Below, one piece after another: positions 9,649 to 64,000 of a stretch of DNA of 64,000 nt (position 1 is the first letter of the stretch; every line of letters starts with the position of its first letter). Source of the DNA: Brevibacillus massiliensis (GTDB lineage Bacteria; Bacillota; Bacilli; Brevibacillales; Brevibacillaceae); NCBI RefSeq assembly GCF_000311785.1, contig NZ_HE978538.1, positions 171,981 to 235,980 on the forward strand, in the 5' to 3' direction. The notes beneath the pieces are model-generated. The model had not been told where the DNA came from, searched no databases, and worked only from the letters and a program-made list of their open reading frames with translations. A program made the translations under genes and the position numbers.

Positions 9649-10229
9649 AGTTGGCGAGAACTCCTTTGTTCCTTGGCCTTTTGCTGTTTCGCATGCCAAG
9701 TGGAGTAGAGGAAGGCACCCAACAAGATGACGGCCACCAGCAGGCCGGGATGGATGTCAAGCAGAAGCAGCCCGACGATGGACAATGCAAGCAATCCAAG
9801 ATAGCCGCTCTTTTTCTGGGCCCCTTTCCAGCCTTTGATAAAGAATTCGTAAGTGAGCGTGATCATCATCACGGCGATGACCGGCTGGATGGCTTGGATC
9901 ATCCCGTTAACGGTGCTGGAATTCTTCAGGACGCTGACGAACTGCATCAAAACGACCATGCCGATGACGACTGGCAAGGAAACGGCTGTTATCGCGACCG
10001 TCGCGCCCAGCCAGGCCTTCATTTTGTACCCGACGTAAGCGGCCATTTTCGTCGCGATCGGTCCCGGCAGTGCATTTCCCAAAGCGTAGTAGTCTGCAAA
10101 CTCTTCTGCGGAAACCCAATTGTACTTTTTTACACATTCTGCATGGACGAGCGGAATCATCGTCGGGCCGCCGCCGTAACCGAAGATTCCGATGCGGAAG
10201 AAAGCGAGAAACAACTGCCAGTAAATCAT
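9645..10229 (-). CDS. ywrB: half-size chromate-type transporter, first subunit (Chr3N/YwrB-like)
   Basis: 194-residue partner of the preceding entry, with the same fold but opposite expected membrane topology. It has FGYGGGPTMIPLVH near residues 16-29 and GNALPGPIATKMAAYVGYKM near 51-70. AGAGGAT precedes the ATG. It begins 25 bases after the ATPase gene of the peptide importer, so it lies in the same transcript. The C-terminal tail is strongly basic (KQQKAKEQRSSRQL). Confidence 0.9.
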   Translation of the reverse strand: MIYWQLFLAFFRIGIFGYGGGPTMIPLVHAECVKKYNWVSAEEFADYYALGNALPGPIATKMAAYVGYKMKAWLGATVAITAVSLPVVIGMVVLMQFVSVLKNSSTVNGMIQAIQPVIAVMMITLTYEFFIKGWKGAQKKSGYLGLLALSIVGLLLLDIHPGLLVAVILLGAFLYSTWHAKQQKAKEQRSSRQL

Positions 10230-10254
10230 TTTGAAAATCCTCTCTGCCAGGTAA

Positions 10255-11226
10255 TCAGCGGCCCTTCAGCAAGTGGCAAGAAACCAACTGGCCGTCTCCA
10301 ATATCCTGCAAGTGCGGGACCGCTGTTTTGCACTCCTCGGTGGCATGGATGCATCGGGGGTGGAACGTACATCCGCTTGGCGGATTTGCGGGGCTGGGAA
10401 GATCGCCCTTTAGGATAATTCTCTCGCGCTTCACATTCGGATTGGCCTGCGGGACAGCGGAGAGAAGAGCTTGCGTATAGGGATGGCTCGGGTTCTTAAA
10501 GAGTGTCTGCTTGTCGGCTATTTCAACGACGCGGCCCAAATACATCACGGCAACGCGGTCGCAAATATGCTTGACGACCGAAAGATCATGCGAGATAAAC
10601 AGCAGGGTCAGGTTGAAGTCTTTCTTCAAGTCTTTTAAAAGATTCAAGATTTGCGATTGAATCGAGACGTCCAGTGCAGAGACCGGTTCGTCGGCAATGA
10701 TCAGTTTTGGCTTCAGGACGAGTGCCCGGGCGATCCCGATGCGCTGCCGCTGTCCGCCGGAGAAATCGTGAGGATGGCGGTTCAGGTGTTCTTTCTGCAA
10801 ACCGACTACCTCGATGATTTCTTCTACCGTTTTGAGCCGCTCCGCCTTCGTGCCGATTCCGTGGACCTCAAGCGACTCCAGCAGGATCTGCTTGATCGTC
10901 TGCCGCGGGTTCAGCGAAGCGAAGGGGTCCTGAAACACCATCTGAATATCTTTTCTGGTGCGGCGCATCTCTTCTTTGCTGAGCCTGGCCAGGTCCTTGC
11001 CGTTAAACCAGACTTCTCCGGCGGTCGGCTCCAACAGACGCAGAATGGTTCTGCCTGTCGTCGATTTGCCGCAGCCGGATTCCCCGACGATCCCGACGGT
11101 TTCACCGGGATAAACAGTCAGGTCGATCCCGTCGACCGCGCGGACATAGCCAGTCGTTTTCTTCAAGGCTCCTGAGCGAATCGGGAAGTACTTTTGCAGG
11201 CCTTTTACTTCCAATAGCGGTTCCAT
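10255..11226 (-). CDS. oligopeptide/dipeptide ABC transporter ATP-binding protein (DppF/OppF type)
   Basis: Second ATPase of a peptide importer, about 324 residues. It has Walker [11 protein letters not shown]-loop [15 protein letters not shown], signature [15 protein letters not shown] and Walker [12 protein letters not shown], and ends with the peptide-importer C-terminal domain containing the four-cysteine region [21 protein letters not shown] found in OppD/OppF types. The ATG at 11226 comes one base after the upstream TAA and has GGAGGTGG in front; an in-frame ATG at 11235 lies too close to that site. Confidence 0.93.
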
Positions 11227-56624: not shown

Positions 56625-57197
56625 ATGGCTATGAAAAAGGTGAGACTGAAATCACTTGGATTTGCACTGGTGCTGGCGGCGGTTGGACTCTGTTCGTTTC
56701 TAGGCGGGATGCTGGCGACCCAAAGTGCAGGAACGATGCCGGCGGCTGCGGTACATACCTCGAGTATGGATTGGGCAAGGTCAGTCGGATATCTCAAAGA
56801 CAGCACCGACCCAAAAGCAGAGATCCCGCAAGCGGAGTTCATGAAGATGGTGATGGAAGTGTACGGGGAGAAGCAGGGCGGCCTTCGCGTCCCAACCGGG
56901 GCGGAGAATCATTGGGCCTCTGAGTATTACGCGCTTGCCCAGGCAAAGGGCGTCATCGACTGCTCTTGTGAGATCAAACCTGATTTTCCGCTCACGCTGA
57001 AAGAAGCGGCCAAATTCGTGATGCTGGGGATCAATCGGAAGGGAAATCAGCAGGTGGTCTCCTGGGAGCAAATCGAATCCTGGGCGAAGCCCGCGGGGGA
57101 TGCCGAGCAGAATATTACCTATGAGCAGGCAGCCTCTTTGATCAGGAAAATGGATGACGTGTATATAGAGAAGGAATGGAAAGTGGAGGGGATTTAG
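56625..57197 (+). CDS. secreted protein with one SLH-like motif
   Basis: 190 residues from ATG at 56625; the ATG at 56631 is equally possible, since AAAAGGA and AAAGGA each have good spacing to one of them. A signal anchor covers about 10-33. Residues about 85-150 contain NHWASEYYALAQAKGVI, the core of an S-layer homology motif, followed by a second, weaker repeat. SLH motifs bind cell-wall polymers, but three are normally needed. It is one base before the next gene and heads the secreted-protein operon. Confidence 0.8.
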   Translation: MAMKKVRLKSLGFALVLAAVGLCSFLGGMLATQSAGTMPAAAVHTSSMDWARSVGYLKDSTDPKAEIPQAEFMKMVMEVYGEKQGGLRVPTGAENHWASEYYALAQAKGVIDCSCEIKPDFPLTLKEAAKFVMLGINRKGNQQVVSWEQIESWAKPAGDAEQNITYEQAASLIRKMDDVYIEKEWKVEGI

Positions 57198-57198
57198 C

Positions 57199-58023
57199 GT
57201 GAAGCGGTTGATGAACTTGTTGGTGGTAGCGTCACTTGCTATTGGGCTGGGAGCCGTTGGCCAGGCAGTGGAGGCCGAAGAGGCGGTGGACAGTTCAACG
57301 AGCGAGATCAAAGTAGTGGTGGAGGGCAAGGAGGTCGAGTTTCCCGATGCCAAGCCTTATCTCGATGTTAAAACGGGCAGGACGATGGTGCCGGTGAGGT
57401 TTGTGAGTGAGGCACTGGGTGGCAAAGTAACGTGGGATGGTTCGAAAAACACAGTAAAGATCGATCGTGCAGGAGAAAAAATTTCGCTGAAAATTGGAGA
57501 GAAGAGGGCAGAAGTTGCAAATTATACGAAGCGCTTGGATGCACCAGCTATTCTCCGCGATAGTCGGACTTATGTTCCTCTACGATTTGTTAGTGAGTCG
57601 CTGAATCAAAAGGTGGAGTGGGATGAACAAACCAGAGTGATAACAATTACGGCGTTGCCGCCAAGGGAACCACAAGATTTTTGGCTAATGCCTTACAACG
57701 AAGTTGCTTATAAAATCATGAACGATTTTTACAATAGTGTAAGAGTGGAAGGGAATACAGCTATTGGGACTGTTCCGACTGTTCCGAAGGGGTATCAAAT
57801 AGTTTTTAATTATCGTGACACCAGTGATGGGCAATGGGGTAATCAACAATATGATGTAATTGACATTAATAAAAAATACAAGGCTGGCCAAACGTTTAAG
57901 ATTCCCTATTACGGTAAAGGAGGATATTTTATTTTAGGTGTTTTCAAGGGTGATCCGGGACTTGGCGATATCCGAATTGAAGTTCCGTCTTTAGATGCAC
58001 GATGGGGAATGGTTAGACCGTGA
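57199..58023 (+). CDS. secreted protein with copper-amine-oxidase-N (stalk) domain
   Basis: 274 residues, GTG start with GGAGGGG upstream. Signal peptide ends near residue 26. Residues about 35-152 hold a stalk domain with two copies of the (T/Y)(M/V)P(V/L)RFVSE(A/S)L motif (positions about 72 and 133). The last 120 residues (QDFWLMPYNEVAYKIMNDFY onward) are unlike it and unrecognised. Base composition becomes clearly AT-rich from about 57,500 to the end of the gene, unlike the neighbours. Confidence 0.82.
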   Translation: MKRLMNLLVVASLAIGLGAVGQAVEAEEAVDSSTSEIKVVVEGKEVEFPDAKPYLDVKTGRTMVPVRFVSEALGGKVTWDGSKNTVKIDRAGEKISLKIGEKRAEVANYTKRLDAPAILRDSRTYVPLRFVSESLNQKVEWDEQTRVITITALPPREPQDFWLMPYNEVAYKIMNDFYNSVRVEGNTAIGTVPTVPKGYQIVFNYRDTSDGQWGNQQYDVIDINKKYKAGQTFKIPYYGKGGYFILGVFKGDPGLGDIRIEVPSLDARWGMVRP

Positions 58024-61000
58024 ATAAGAAAAAACTCATACCTTGGGTTTTAAGCTTCATCATGACGGCTTATGCTATTCTACCTAATGTTCCTATTGCT
58101 TTTGGAGCAAATGGTTCACCGGATTATGGTCCTCCATGGAATAAAGTGTCAACCTATCTCTTTGCTGGAGATTTATCACCTACTGGATTAGGAACTAATG
58201 ATAATAGACGTGCTCTTGCCCTTTGGCACCAATCAGATTTCAGTGGCCCTCGAAATAATTCTGCCTTAACGAGAATAGAAGGCACAAGTATGGAGCTGCA
58301 GCCAAATCCAGATGAGGGAGAGTGGGATTTAACGAGAAAAGCAGGATATTACGTTGTACCTTGGAATACAGCAGATGTAACAAAGGTAGTCGAATCAGCT
58401 AATGGAAATCCCGATTGGGTGTTAAAAAATAAGTCGAAAATTCCTCGTGAACATATTTGGCAAGTAGACGGTTCGGAATGGGTAGCCTTTGGCGACCTCG
58501 TCCGACTCAGTGGAGGCGGCAGCCCGAACCAAACAAAACCAGGAGATAGAAAACCAGGTGGTGGGGTATCAGAGCCATTGTATCACACAACCTGGCAAAC
58601 GACTGCATGGCCTGTCTACAACTCCATTACACTCAACAGTACCCAGGTGGCGAAAGATTCGAAGGTTACGAATCAGCTATTTATCGCGGCAGCCGGCAAA
58701 CCGTTGAACGTCGTCGTCAATTCCACTACCTATGGGATAAACGGAACAGTGAACACGCTCAAAACCTATGTGGATGGCAAGCTTGAACCAAGTTTAGGCG
58801 GATCATCTACACAGATCGCCTATGGAGCCGCGCCGTACTCCTGGAAGTTTACGATTAGCGATCCTGCCTTACTAAAGTCTGGCGATATACATACGATAAC
58901 CTTTGAGGCGCGAGACGATTATGGCCGATCCACTCCTATTGAGATCAAGTATAAAGTGGATACGACACAGGAATGTACGGATTGGGTGAACGCAACCTTA
59001 CAGCTACCAGGTCAATCCAATAAGTCCATTCCCAGTGGTGGAGAGTACAAGCTGCCAGCAGGAGTGAACACCGTCACGCTGTCTTTTCCTCACTCTGGAA
59101 CACTGAAGATGGATGGGGTCGATTATGGCAGTGGAAACACCTTTTCGAACATACTCATCAAAGGCCCCACAACGCTGTTTTATAAGTCTGCTGATGAGAA
59201 AGAGTGCTGGACAAAGGATATTTATCCCGAAGCGCCACCCATAGCCGAGTGCGATCCGGCCCAATCCAAGCTATCGCTCCACGTCTGGATGTTTGGCAGC
59301 AGGACGGACCGTGATGTCAACCTGCCAAGCGGAAGCCCGGGTTATGCCCTCCCCACAGATGTCCACCTGCTTACGGTTGAAGCCCCAGGCGCGCAAAAAG
59401 GTTCCTTCTACCTCAATGGCGTCCTGGTTGCGGAGAATGTCGGCTCCCATGATTTTTCCGTAAGCCGCAATGATGCGATCACCATAAAGTACGTCAGCAA
59501 AGACGGCAGGGAGTGCTGGATCAAGACCTTTGTATGGGATGGACAAGTGAGCTGCCCGATCGTTTACCAGAACTCCAAAAACGGCAGGCAAATCTCTGAC
59601 GGATCGACCATTGAGGTAGAACTGGGCGGCAGCCTCAGTCTGTTTGCCCGTTTCAAGGATACGGACGGCACGATGGCAGACGCTTATTTGTATTGGGAAG
59701 TGTACCGCCCAGGGGACACAGTGCCCGTTGTGATGGATATGGTGTGGGAAGATAAAATTCGCACTGTTCCGACAAATAACTTGAAGCTTCCGGCAATCGG
59801 ATACGATGATCGCTCCATTGTCTTTGACCGGCCGGGCGGCATTTACCGGATCAAATTGCGTTACGACGGCCAATACGAGAAAGAATGGCAGGACTGCAAA
59901 TGGGAAATAACGGTTCGGGTTGTCGGAACCACAGAGAACATCTGTAAAAATTCCGAGATCGAAGCTTGGCTTGATAGCCAAACGGAGCTGCCCATGTCCA
60001 AAAATGCAGATGGAAACTATGCCCTAACCATCATGCCGGGAAGTCATGTTTCGTTTGAAGCATTCTACGACAAAAAAACGATCCCGTGGCCGGAATGGAC
60101 GTTGAGAAACAGCTCTGGTCAGGTGTTAAAATCGACAACCAATATTACCAATTTCCTGTATACGTTTACTGATAAAGACACGTACACATTAACAGCCAAA
60201 TATCAAATCAAGTCGTCCGTTGGGGTCATCGATTGCAGCAAGACCGTGACCATCAATGTCAAAACCATTGACTGTGAAGAAATATCCTTCAACGCAGCAG
60301 TGGACGGCAGGGATACCCGCATTCAGGGATCCAGCCCTTACACAATCCGTCTGGAAAGGGGGCTTACGAATCAACTTGTCTTGGAAGCCGTCTATCCTCA
60401 ATCGAATGTCACAGTTACAGGGGATTGGGTGCTTAAGAAAAACGGGACGACGCTTCGAACCGTCGTAGGCAAAAATCCGTTCTCCCATACCTTTGATGAT
60501 AAGACCGATGCCGTATACACCTTGGAGGCAACCGTTTACGTGAACGGCGAACCCTGCCGAAAGACATTCCAGATTGAACTGAAAGGGCTGAAGTGCGCAG
60601 ACATTAGTTTGAACATGAAAAACTCTGCCAGTGGTTTTGTCCTTGCCGACCTCCCCAATGGCGGCAAAGAAAAGATCGTTGGTGTCCAGGTAAATGTTAC
60701 CTTTTGGCTGTCTAAAACGGGGAACCGTGATGAGTACATTAACGCCGTTTGGAGCGGTCCTTATTCAAATGCCTCCCCTGATCCAAAGAAAGAGTACACC
60801 ATGACCGGTTTGCCAATTGGCAGTTACACCGTCACAGCCAAGGTAGACGATTCGCGATATCCGTCACTCAATGATTGTACGTTCACCTTTACAGTTGAGA
60901 TTACCGATCAGAAAGATTGTTCCGGCATATACCTTCATCTGGTGGATTCCGCAAGTGGAGGTTGGACTCACAATGTTGACGGAAAGACGATCTATCTCAA

Positions 61001-62438
61001 AGGCAGCAGCGTGACATTTGGGTTGCTCTTGCTGGATGAACCCAATCGCCATGAAGGAACCACACTGGAGGCTGACTGGTCGGGGCCGCGACCAAGCGAT
61101 TCGGGCGAATTTGGATATCTCTTAATGAATGCCCCGCCGGGAACATACACGATCAAAGCGGTTGTAACAGATAAAAATTTTCCCAATGCCAAGGGCTGCA
61201 TCTATACGGTAACGGTTGTGATCTCAGACGACGCTTCTCCGCCTGATCCGCCGCCCGGGGGAGACGTAGACGGCGGCCAGGTGAGAATCAACATCTACGA
61301 CTCGGAAAACCGCCTATTGGTCAGCCCCTCTGACGGGGTATGGGAGCGTGAGCCGGCCAGAATAGAAGTAGTCATTGACCAGGGGAGGATCGACGCGGCT
61401 TTTTCCGCCATTGACGACCAGATTAACACGGCAATTCAACACAAGGTCAGCGAGCTGTACAGCAGGTATTCAGGTGCCGAGTATGAGGACGTACAAGTTA
61501 CGGCTGACCCGCCGAAATGGACCGGCAAAACGAGCGCCGGGACAAAATGGCCAAGCCTTGAGTTGACAGTAACCGGTCCTGGCCAAGATCAACGGTTTTC
61601 GCTGAATCCCAAGCAGGCCTCCCAATCCAATCTGTATGCCGGGACGGTTGTACCGACGCAGACGACTTGGCGGCAGGCGCTTCAGACGATGAAGTATTCC
61701 GCAGCGGTAGATTCTTTCACCATACAGGTTCCCTATCAGGTAGATTTCGAGGCGAGTTTCCAGCAATGCGTGACGAACAGCGGAGAGGATGACGGCGACC
61801 CGCCAGAGGAAAAATGGTGTACACCTGGCAGGGACTCTGACAGGATTGCAGGCTTGTTTGCCATCGTCGTGAAGGGAGATGAAACCCGTTTTGAGGTGTT
61901 CGAGCCTAACGCCAAGGGGATCATCCTGCATACTGACGAATGGAGTGAATTCCATCAGCGGGACCGGTATAAAGACAGTCAGCCTCATGATTTTTACGCG
62001 GGGGAACGCATCCTCGCCCATCTGCAGCTTGAGTCCAGGCACAAGCATCCGGTGAGCGGCAAATACCCGCGAATCGAGTCGGCGGCTGCCTGGATCTCCG
62101 AAACGGGCAGGCAGTCGACCACACTGCAGTCGAAGCTATCCCTGGTAGCAAAGTCATCCACCTTGTGGACAGGTCCCGGGCAAATGATCGAGAAATTGGG
62201 ACTACGGGAGGCAGGAGTAGATACTCCGCTCATGGGAGACAAACAGAAGGGATTTCAAAAAGATAGACAGTACGCCGTTTACTTCTCTGTACAGTTCGGT
62301 TTTCAGGTGAACAAAGGATTTGCTTATCCTGATAAGACACGTGGAACGGGACACGACCCGGAAGATTATCGCGCGGTCTTTCGTATTATCGCCAATGCGT
62401 GGGAACGCCAAGGCATCCGCAATCACACCACCCACTAA
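58020..62438 (+). CDS. very large secreted protein with seven Cys-paired Ig-like modules
   Basis: 1472 residues, GTG start overlapping the upstream stop. Signal peptide ends near residue 30 (AFGANG). After an N-terminal part of about 290 residues come seven modules of 90-130 residues. Each opens with a Cys (319, 411, 512, 642, 752, 859, 967) in a C.(D/E)(I/W).L pattern and has a second Cys on its last strand (396, 499, 626, 739, 846, 953, 1060) before a hydrophobic .(F/V).V.(I/V). strand. A Pro/Gly linker (DDASPPDPPPGGDVDGG, about 1068) leads to a C-terminal part of 390 residues without a known domain. It is probably a surface fibre or adhesin-like protein. No LPXTG is present. The first 180 codons lie in the AT-rich patch. 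Confidence 0.85.
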   Translation: MNKKKLIPWVLSFIMTAYAILPNVPIAFGANGSPDYGPPWNKVSTYLFAGDLSPTGLGTNDNRRALALWHQSDFSGPRNNSALTRIEGTSMELQPNPDEGEWDLTRKAGYYVVPWNTADVTKVVESANGNPDWVLKNKSKIPREHIWQVDGSEWVAFGDLVRLSGGGSPNQTKPGDRKPGGGVSEPLYHTTWQTTAWPVYNSITLNSTQVAKDSKVTNQLFIAAAGKPLNVVVNSTTYGINGTVNTLKTYVDGKLEPSLGGSSTQIAYGAAPYSWKFTISDPALLKSGDIHTITFEARDDYGRSTPIEIKYKVDTTQECTDWVNATLQLPGQSNKSIPSGGEYKLPAGVNTVTLSFPHSGTLKMDGVDYGSGNTFSNILIKGPTTLFYKSADEKECWTKDIYPEAPPIAECDPAQSKLSLHVWMFGSRTDRDVNLPSGSPGYALPTDVHLLTVEAPGAQKGSFYLNGVLVAENVGSHDFSVSRNDAITIKYVSKDGRECWIKTFVWDGQVSCPIVYQNSKNGRQISDGSTIEVELGGSLSLFARFKDTDGTMADAYLYWEVYRPGDTVPVVMDMVWEDKIRTVPTNNLKLPAIGYDDRSIVFDRPGGIYRIKLRYDGQYEKEWQDCKWEITVRVVGTTENICKNSEIEAWLDSQTELPMSKNADGNYALTIMPGSHVSFEAFYDKKTIPWPEWTLRNSSGQVLKSTTNITNFLYTFTDKDTYTLTAKYQIKSSVGVIDCSKTVTINVKTIDCEEISFNAAVDGRDTRIQGSSPYTIRLERGLTNQLVLEAVYPQSNVTVTGDWVLKKNGTTLRTVVGKNPFSHTFDDKTDAVYTLEATVYVNGEPCRKTFQIELKGLKCADISLNMKNSASGFVLADLPNGGKEKIVGVQVNVTFWLSKTGNRDEYINAVWSGPYSNASPDPKKEYTMTGLPIGSYTVTAKVDDSRYPSLNDCTFTFTVEITDQKDCSGIYLHLVDSASGGWTHNVDGKTIYLKGSSVTFGLLLLDEPNRHEGTTLEADWSGPRPSDSGEFGYLLMNAPPGTYTIKAVVTDKNFPNAKGCIYTVTVVISDDASPPDPPPGGDVDGGQVRINIYDSENRLLVSPSDGVWEREPARIEVVIDQGRIDAAFSAIDDQINTAIQHKVSELYSRYSGAEYEDVQVTADPPKWTGKTSAGTKWPSLELTVTGPGQDQRFSLNPKQASQSNLYAGTVVPTQTTWRQALQTMKYSAAVDSFTIQVPYQVDFEASFQQCVTNSGEDDGDPPEEKWCTPGRDSDRIAGLFAIVVKGDETRFEVFEPNAKGIILHTDEWSEFHQRDRYKDSQPHDFYAGERILAHLQLESRHKHPVSGKYPRIESAAAWISETGRQSTTLQSKLSLVAKSSTLWTGPGQMIEKLGLREAGVDTPLMGDKQKGFQKDRQYAVYFSVQFGFQVNKGFAYPDKTRGTGHDPEDYRAVFRIIANAWERQGIRNHTTH

Positions 62439-62505
62439 AATTCTTTGCGCCCCCTGTCTGTCTTTTCCTACCTTAGTGGTGAGGAAAGCAAAGGGGGGGT
62501 TTTAT

Positions 62506-64000
62506 TTGAACAACCGGATTAGACAGGTGCTGCTGCTACTACTGGTCCTTGCGTTTACGTTGATGCCGGTGCTGCAGGCATCCGCGTTGATTGCGGCTGA
62601 GAATCCCGGAAAACGCAGCGTGCAGCCAGAAGCGCGCGTCCCGCTGGATCAAAAAGAGAAGGAGTTTTACCAAGATGTGTACGGCACGGAGGACGAAGAC
62701 GCCATCACCGAGCTCATCGGCCAGGAAGGGAAGCGTTCCGGCAGTGCGACTGGCAGGTATGAGCGGTTTGAGATTGAGCCAAACGATACGCCGGGACAAG
62801 CAGATTGGACTTTCTCCGGAAGCGATGCCTACGGGCGCATACAGAGTGCAGATGATGTCGACTACTGGAAGATCAGGGCACCCGGCAACGGAACGCTGCA
62901 GGTGAAGCTGGATCAGATTCCCGCTGGACAAGACTACAACCTCTATTTGTACGATTCCGAACAGAAAGAACTGGGAAAATCGGAGAGGAGGGGGGCGGCA
63001 GACGAGCGAATCGAAGGGATCAGGGTCAAGCAGGAACAGTGGTACTACTTCGCAGTACGGGGAGCAGGCGGCAGTTTCAGCAAAAAAGACTACTACCATT
63101 TAATGGCTGAGTTTGTCCCGGAGGGGAGCCGGATTATACCTGACAAGTACGAGCCGAACAACAGGTCGGCAGACGCTGTGGAAATCCAGCCAAACAGCAC
63201 TTTGCGGGCCAACATACACGACAAGGACGACATCGACTACTTTAAACTGCAGGTGCCCCTGGCCTCGACAATCGAGCTTTTGTTGACTGGCATGCCGGCA
63301 GGCGTGGACCTCGACTTGTACTTGCTGGACAAGGACGGCAGACAGATTGCACAGTCGGAGTACGCGAAGAATTTGAACGAATCGATCACGTTCAACGGCG
63401 ATCCCGGGACGTATTATGTCAAAATAAAGATGGACAAGCGCTCGGAATTGGTGGATCACGAGTACCAACTGTCCGTAAAGGTACATACCATTCCGGTCAT
63501 CTTGGTTCCCGGCATCGGCGGTTCGCGCTTGCTGGCGAATGAACGGGGGAAAATCTCGGAAGCCTGGCTCAACTTTGCAGCCATGCTCGATCCCAAGGAC
63601 AACGAACACCGCAGATTGCTCGCGTTGACCCCTCAGTCTCCGGGAAGTGTCAAGATGGTTCCCCAAAACAGCGGGATTCAAATCCTCCCGGAAGCAGAGG
63701 ACGATGGGCTGCGGGGTATTTCCTATCTGTCGTACAATTCCCTTGCGAAAAAAGAGGCAGAGCAGTACCACAGCATGGCTGAACACCTGCAGAAGATGGG
63801 CTATAAAAAAGGAGAATCACTCTTCGGGTTCCCTTATGACTGGCGGATGAGCAGCGCCGACAATGCCGGCAGCCTGCTGCGAAAGATTGATGAAGCGATC
63901 GCCAAGTCAAATGCCAAGCAGGTACAGCTGGTGGTCCACAGTATGGGCGGTCTCTTAACCAAGGAGGCCCTGCTGCAAAATACGCAATACCAACACAAAA
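62506..64000 (+). CDS. secreted LCAT-like lipase/acyltransferase with two PPC domains (3' end outside window)
   Basis: The frame is open from a TTG at 62506, with AAAGGGGGGG 7 bases upstream, to the window end: 498 codons seen, C-terminus missing. Signal peptide residues about 1-30. Two pre-peptidase C-terminal (PPC) domains follow, about 86-208 and 212-325, each opening with an EPN(D/N) motif and ending in G.(Y/W)Y(V/F).(I/V). The catalytic part starts near 330 with PVILVPGIGGSRLL, the oxyanion-region wording of lecithin:cholesterol acyltransferases, and has the nucleophile Ser in VVHSMGGL near 484. It should act on a lipid or ester outside the cell. The acid and His lie beyond the window. 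Confidence 0.88.
   Translation, partial: MNNRIRQVLLLLLVLAFTLMPVLQASALIAAENPGKRSVQPEARVPLDQKEKEFYQDVYGTEDEDAITELIGQEGKRSGSATGRYERFEIEPNDTPGQADWTFSGSDAYGRIQSADDVDYWKIRAPGNGTLQVKLDQIPAGQDYNLYLYDSEQKELGKSERRGAADERIEGIRVKQEQWYYFAVRGAGGSFSKKDYYHLMAEFVPEGSRIIPDKYEPNNRSADAVEIQPNSTLRANIHDKDDIDYFKLQVPLASTIELLLTGMPAGVDLDLYLLDKDGRQIAQSEYAKNLNESITFNGDPGTYYVKIKMDKRSELVDHEYQLSVKVHTIPVILVPGIGGSRLLANERGKISEAWLNFAAMLDPKDNEHRRLLALTPQSPGSVKMVPQNSGIQILPEAEDDGLRGISYLSYNSLAKKEAEQYHSMAEHLQKMGYKKGESLFGFPYDWRMSSADNAGSLLRKIDEAIAKSNAKQVQLVVHSMGGLLTKEALLQNTQYQHK

Follow-up and report, generated by a model that had tools for sequence, protein, structure and literature searches.

A conserved operon for predicted surface proteins of the Brevibacillus family, with exchangeable candidate anchor and cysteine-bearing modules and an LCAT-like lipase

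Each component of the locus described here recalls a protein of a known kind. Antigen I/II proteins and PrgB are adhesins, PrgB being the conjugation adhesin of the conjugative plasmid pCF10, and their C-domains have a weak fold likeness to the C-terminal module of a giant protein encoded in the locus. LCAT and group XV phospholipase A2 (LPLA2; structures 4x90 and 4xwg) share with its lipase the family PF02450 and a Ser-Asp-His pattern. SLH trimers such as SpaA-SLH (7sv3, 6cwm) and Sap-SLH (3pyw) have the fold modelled for its first product, and SLH modules occur in the second product of most relatives; the arginine of the TRAE motif is called critical to wall binding in an excerpt of PMC6081394. 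The cell-surface-binding module of the cellulosomal proteins OlpC and ScaG belongs to the same Pfam family as the module of the second product, PF07833. In extracts of three sources, wall-polymer binding by this module is credited to Pinheiro et al. (PMC4582956), OlpC is said to have SLH modules (PMC4045903), and PF07833 proteins are placed with cell-wall hydrolases and not with anchors (PMC4137172). The MdbA-type oxidoreductases, which in the excerpted literature act in pilus and adhesin folding in Actinobacteria, offer a likeness in the provision of disulfides for Gram-positive surface proteins.

The locus lies at the end of a 64,000-nucleotide stretch of Brevibacillus massiliensis DNA (hereafter the window; 171981-235980 of contig C4), and its last gene was completed by reading on into the contig (L009:7487-9895). 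Its four genes occupy places referred to below as slots 1 to 4 (Table 1).

Layout and conservation of the operon

The four genes are co-directional, with intergenic spacings of 1, -4 and 67 bases, and all four products look exported, signal peptides being recognised by eye at the N-termini of slots 2-4 and a membrane helix in the model of slot 1. The original prediction of tightly spaced genes for secreted proteins is borne out by these gaps, and the order and the spacing recur across the family. Its assignments of a stalk domain to slot 2 (PF07833, Cu_amine_oxidN1; E 4.9e-36) and of a PPC/LCAT-like lipase to slot 4 (PF02450, E 3.5e-55, 188.3 bits against a cut-off of 21; PF04151, E 2.7e-14) agree with the Pfam searches, while the SLH-like call for slot 1 holds for the modelled fold (Z 15) and not for Pfam, which gave no match.

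Table 1. Positions, in the window, of the four genes and of the features discussed in the text
Feature	Position	Strand	Description
Slot 1	56625-57197	+	190 aa, counted from the ATG at 56625; modelled as an SLH fold on a membrane anchor, bearing a CxC
Cys-Ser-Cys (C113, C115) of slot 1	56961-56969	+	both Cys invariant in 8/8 alignment rows
Slot 2	57199-58023	+	274 aa; secreted wall-anchor candidate, stalk module and tail
Cu_amine_oxidN1 (stalk) module of slot 2	57316-57648	+	PF07833, residues 40-150; 123.4 bits (cut-off 24.2)
Tail of slot 2	57661-58020	+	shares homology with the tail found in slot 2 proteins of the SLH type
Slot 3	58020-62438	+	1472 aa; giant Ig-like surface protein, 16 Cys in eight pairs
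Conserved C-terminal module of slot 3 (residues 1061-1472)	61200-62435	+	AlphaFold pLDDT 88.6
Slot 4	62506-64914	+	802 aa; PPC-PPC-LCAT lipase (predicted); the window ends inside the gene at 64000
Predicted catalytic Ser479 of the lipase	63940-63942	+	triad columns conserved in 32/32 lipase rows

The cluster is syntenic in the Brevibacillus family, lying between what we take to be an HD-domain/ywgA-like pair on one side and ywhD/pbp/speE-like genes on the other. In a survey of 35 family genomes, relatives of slot 3 were identified in 33 (none was found in G003 and G014) and full-length relatives of the lipase in 29, beside the Ig gene in 28 of these, the locus in G001 being cut by contig ends. 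The chromosomal operons in which slots 1-3 are readable make up a set of 36, which leaves out G003 and G014 (where an Ig gene was not identified) and the truncated loci of G009 and G385, and adds G376, G394 and the named records L102 and L106. The lipase is next door in 32 of the 36 and absent in G002, G011 and G012; in G001, where slot 3 is an N-terminal fragment, the operon ends at the contig edge. Slot 3 and the lipase are separated by 6 to 81 bases in the family wherever the two reading frames do not overlap. The four-gene set is a syntenic core operon, beyond chance. Relatives were searched for the genes occurring apart from one another, which would speak against the set as originally proposed, and such an arrangement proved to be the exception. 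In G011, whose operon has no lipase, a 1366-aa ORF away from the operon (L085 3739-7839) contains an LCAT-like stretch (36-40% identity); it could be a relocated or a separate enzyme.

No promoter or terminator at the operon ends stood clearly above shuffled sequences. An upstream scan gave no promoters and one terminator, counts near those of shuffles, and in a further scan of the operon ends four promoter-like sites (expected 2.5; three lie on the other strand) and five terminators (expected 3.9) were counted. A hairpin before the lipase gene was rejected as a regulator (z -1.0; 26 of 200 shuffles fold equally well). Two small membrane ORFs lie 3' of the lipase (L009:9927-10208 and 10229-10513; window positions are obtained by adding 55019) and were rejected as parts of the operon, having no family counterpart at that place and no Pfam match; their sole relative is a 28-residue match (E 0.006) in G008.

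Exchange of modules in slots 1 and 2

The N-terminal module of slot 2 is SLH in 30 of the 36 operons and stalk in the other six, and the two types share a tail. Comparison of the stalk-type and SLH-type tails with hhalign gave 97.4%, E 1.4e-11 and a score of 65.7 over 55 columns, the best of 50 column shuffles scoring 19.8, and two bridging proteins (L078, L102) have a stalk N-module joined to an SLH-type tail. On a tree of slot 3, which is unrooted, built on one domain and has some long branches, the SLH and stalk labels change five times, at least three of the changes being forced by well supported branches, and the labels are no more clustered than shuffled ones. Because it exchanges with SLH on a common tail, the stalk module is a candidate wall anchor. 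Slot 2 is thus likely to anchor the set to wall polymer through either an SLH trimer or a stalk module, an analogy that draws on the swap and on one published precedent.

Pfam assigned no family to slot 1, PF00395 included, and likewise none to another member of its alignment. The AlphaFold model computed from eight sequences (pLDDT 79.5), after L124 with its interrupted frame was dropped from the alignment, has a helix at residues 4-33 followed by three helix-loop-helix repeats. VIA-align placed it on SpaA-SLH (7sv3) with Z 15.0 and an rmsd of 2.6 A over 141 aligned residues; thirteen SLH entries gave Z values of 12.8-15.0, the next values being 6.4, for an S-layer cytochrome, and 3.3. According to the model, slot 1 is a membrane helix with an SLH trimer fold. 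The TRAE arginine is found in none of the 24 motif cells of the eight sequences. Slot 1 of the window has the SLH fold and a CxC, not a thioredoxin fold with CxxC, and the protein may resemble a thioredoxin only in function.

The place of slot 1 is taken by a CxC protein in 11 of the 36 operons and by a CxxC thioredoxin in 25, no operon having both or neither; all three of the thioredoxins put to Pfam, two chromosomal and one mobile, matched PF00085. Since the two kinds of protein alternate beside slot 3, which is the sole Cys-rich long protein of the set, the simplest reading of the sequences is that slot 1 is probably the disulfide catalyst of slot 3. The split between CxC and thioredoxin follows, in essence, a single branch in the tree of slot 3, so that the 36 operons represent few independent events. 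The mobile copy on G008:C20 carries a thioredoxin but groups with the thioredoxin clade. The best case beyond the single-branch split is the mobile-type copy on G034:C3, which has a thioredoxin together with a slot 1 relative devoid of CxC.

The giant protein, the lipase and the mobile-type copies

No Pfam family was matched above the cut-off in slot 3. In the window its cysteines fall into seven pairs spaced 77-114 residues apart and a last pair spaced by 17. Among the CxC-type rows 16 columns carry Cys, 14 of them in 10/10 rows and the other two in 8/10 and 7/10, and in the thioredoxin-type rows ten columns are Cys in 26/26; the giants thus have 5 to 8 conserved Cys pairs. The Ig proteins contain 9.2 Cys per 1000 aa as compared with 1.7 in the lipase, 1.8 in SLH-type slot 2 and 0.7 in stalk-type slot 2, and the six other SLH ORFs of the same genome, three of which are cut by locus ends, have 0 or 1 Cys each. 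Judged by this pairing, slot 3 is very probably disulfide-bonded. It would be a chain of Ig domains with a C-terminal module, and its role as an adhesin or rod reaching other surfaces is modestly favoured.

The C-terminal module was detected in 35 of the 398 genomes of the class, 34 of them from the same family, and the 26 loci with the module in named records are all from Brevibacillus save one titled Anoxybacillus sediminis. The one match in another family, in G053, is weak and covers profile positions 223-274 near the end of a 1736-aa giant. This giant, with PKD and Ig domains, stands beside a 416-aa SLH protein (L133 9247-15723), and the pair is possibly a distant form of the set. Antigen I/II C-domains and PrgB fill the ten best VIA rows for the model of the module, at Z 7.3-8.1, while unrelated rows reach 7.0, so that the modelled likeness lies within the range of chance arrangements and can serve as a hint only; Foldseek TM-scores for the fold of this domain are low. 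Ig/FN3-like matches in a viral fold library were rejected, their query TM-scores being all under 0.3. The last ~15 residues of slot 3 (NAWERQGIRNHTT; window 62380-62435 covers the C-terminus) are nearly unchanged in the chromosomal copies and differ in the mobile-type copies.

The columns of S479, D653 and H678, which we take to be the lipase triad residues, are kept in all 32 lipase rows, the triad being assigned by motif; Asp653 and His678 are encoded past the end of the window, and the residues surrounding the Asp are GDDTVP in one row and GDGTVT in another. The nearest solved relatives by sequence are LPLA2 (E 2.9e-8) and LCAT, and a PhaZ7-like depolymerase was rejected (NCBIfam E 0.14 only). 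Slot 4 is predicted to be a secreted acyl-ester hydrolase or acyltransferase of the LCAT/LPLA2 family. It may be displayed near the rod, its putative substrate being phospholipid or another acyl lipid in a surface that is contacted, a suggestion that is tentative. Outside the family, lipase matches at E <= 1e-30 come from four genomes of one other family; the relatives in G154 and G164 (36% identity, the PPC part matched too) had no slot 1-3, Ig or SLH neighbour on inspection, which indicates that the lipase can work alone.

Slots 1-3 also occur in lipase-less, mobile-type copies at five loci (G000:C23, G001:C4/C6, G008:C20, G034:C3 and G394:C15). CpaF, TadB/TadC or pilin-like genes stand beside all five, and conjugation genes (TraG P-loop, TrbL, T4SS-DNA_transf) at three. 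The copy on G000:C23 (L071 8146-15543) is a second slot 1-3 set in the genome of the window, on a contig with ParM-like, RadC-like, TrbL and TraG-type genes. It is 77-80% identical to the core set in slots 1 and 3 and 57% in slot 2, the value for slot 3 being 77% over the matched part. Part of its Ig gene reads N; this slot 3 groups with the core slot 3 of its own genome (support 93/99). Five further Tad loci (L158-L161, L163) encode a stalk protein and a protein of about 480-500 aa with the slot 3 N-domain; there the stalk, N-domain and ~750-aa Ig-type proteins precede TadE/CpaB/CpaE/CpaF/TadB-like genes in a fixed order, with RcpC/CpaB (PF16976) and T2SSE (PF00437) matched in L158. As slots 1-3 occur without the lipase and beside Tad genes, the core operon has the look of a surface module, related to Tad, to which a lipase was added.

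Proposed function and comparison with known systems

The original prediction saw in these genes a surface-anchored complex that binds and hydrolyses a lipid substrate or modifies the surface. The idea of a surface complex is partly supported, with lipid binding by the Ig giant a putative property, by a conserved, surface-anchored set ending in a lipase with an intact triad, and it is weakened by the absence of the lipase from 3 of the 35 resolved operons and from 5/5 mobile-type copies, which makes slots 1-3 a unit of their own. The Cys pairs, the alternation of CxC and thioredoxin in slot 1, the SLH/stalk exchange and the association with Tad genes go beyond that prediction. Conservation, folds, motifs and swaps are shown by the present analysis; disulfide catalysis, wall anchoring by this set, adhesion, the lipid target and a physical complex of the products are what we infer. 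The interpretation cautiously preferred here is that one operon encodes a wall-tethered surface rod, the factors that mature and anchor it, and a lipase. Slot 1, an SLH fold with a CxC in place of the wall-binding arginines, would sit in the membrane and form or correct the disulfides of slot 3, a role that appears fairly probable. Slot 2 would hold the set on wall polymer, slot 3 would extend as a long disulfide-locked Ig chain towards other surfaces, and slot 4, shown near the rod, would attack an acyl lipid of the surface contacted.

The genes could instead form an ordinary operon for secreted proteins, in which an S-layer-associated structural protein and its anchor are co-transcribed with an unrelated nutritional lipase. 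The solitary lipase relatives in G154 and G164 and the three resolved operons devoid of a lipase are compatible with such an arrangement, and the contact between lipase and Ig protein is itself inferred; against it, every full-length lipase relative that could be placed within the family stands beside the Ig gene, with 6 to 81 bases between the two wherever their frames do not overlap, and we regard it as unlikely. Equally, slots 1-3 might supply a Tad pilus with its wall-side anchor and its adhesin, the core copy serving a pilus encoded elsewhere. The Tad-type neighbours of all five lipase-less copies and the association of stalk and slot 3 N-domain proteins at the five further Tad loci favour this view, as do the CpaF-type matches in the same genome, two on contig C13 in addition to the one on C23. 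However, no CpaF, TadB/TadC or pilin match was found beside the core operon in L009 or L010, and the N-domain was not detected in giants of the thioredoxin type, which leaves a pilus accessory an improbable account of the core operon.

A different objection concerns slot 1, whose CxC, lying within an SLH fold, could have a structural role or bind metal. The protein may have no redox role, its cysteines binding metal or cross-linking it to slot 3; the thioredoxin found in other operons would then have a different purpose. That it has two conserved Cys only, in a fold that is SLH and not thioredoxin, is in keeping with this, but the strict alternation with a CxxC thioredoxin beside the sole Cys-rich long protein argues against it, and we do not expect it to hold. 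A disulfide-forming slot 1 remains the preferred reading. Its bolder extension, that slot 1 is a new extracytoplasmic disulfide catalyst belonging to a movable surface machine of monoderm bacteria, used for contact by Tad-type conjugative elements and armed with a phospholipase on the chromosome, is speculative and somewhat doubtful; if true, an SLH trimer has lost its wall binding, acquired a CxC and taken on the task that a thioredoxin performs in sister species, and the machine would further comprise the SLH or stalk wall anchor and the disulfide-locked Ig giant.

Natural swaps at one conserved place make testable two modules whose use in many Gram-positive genomes is unclear, the stalk (PF07833) module as a candidate wall anchor equal to SLH and the Cys-bearing SLH fold as a candidate thiol-disulfide factor equal to thioredoxin. 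The operon would also exemplify disulfide chemistry dedicated to one surface protein in Firmicutes, and it offers Tad pili of cells that have no outer membrane a candidate module on the wall side.

A description of the four-gene set was not found in the PubMed Central literature, outside which most subscription papers lie, and a search there for Brevibacillus with cholesterol acyltransferase returned only work that is unrelated by title and abstract. The parts are of known kinds, and their combination and swaps appear new within the literature searched. In contrast to SLH trimers, slot 1 is without the TRAE arginine, is membrane-anchored by its model and bears a CxC. The PF07833 module, present in OlpC and ScaG, here takes the place of SLH on a common tail, and the operon encodes a candidate adhesin and a lipase but no cohesin. 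Slot 3 differs from antigen I/II and PrgB in having neither a sequence match to them nor an LPxTG end, the fold match not rising above the range of chance. Whereas the excerpted accounts of disulfide supply concern MdbA-type oxidoreductases, the candidate here is encoded within the operon and is either a thioredoxin or a CxC protein of SLH fold. Unlike LCAT and LPLA2, the predicted enzyme of slot 4 is a secreted bacterial protein with two PPC domains, encoded within a surface operon.
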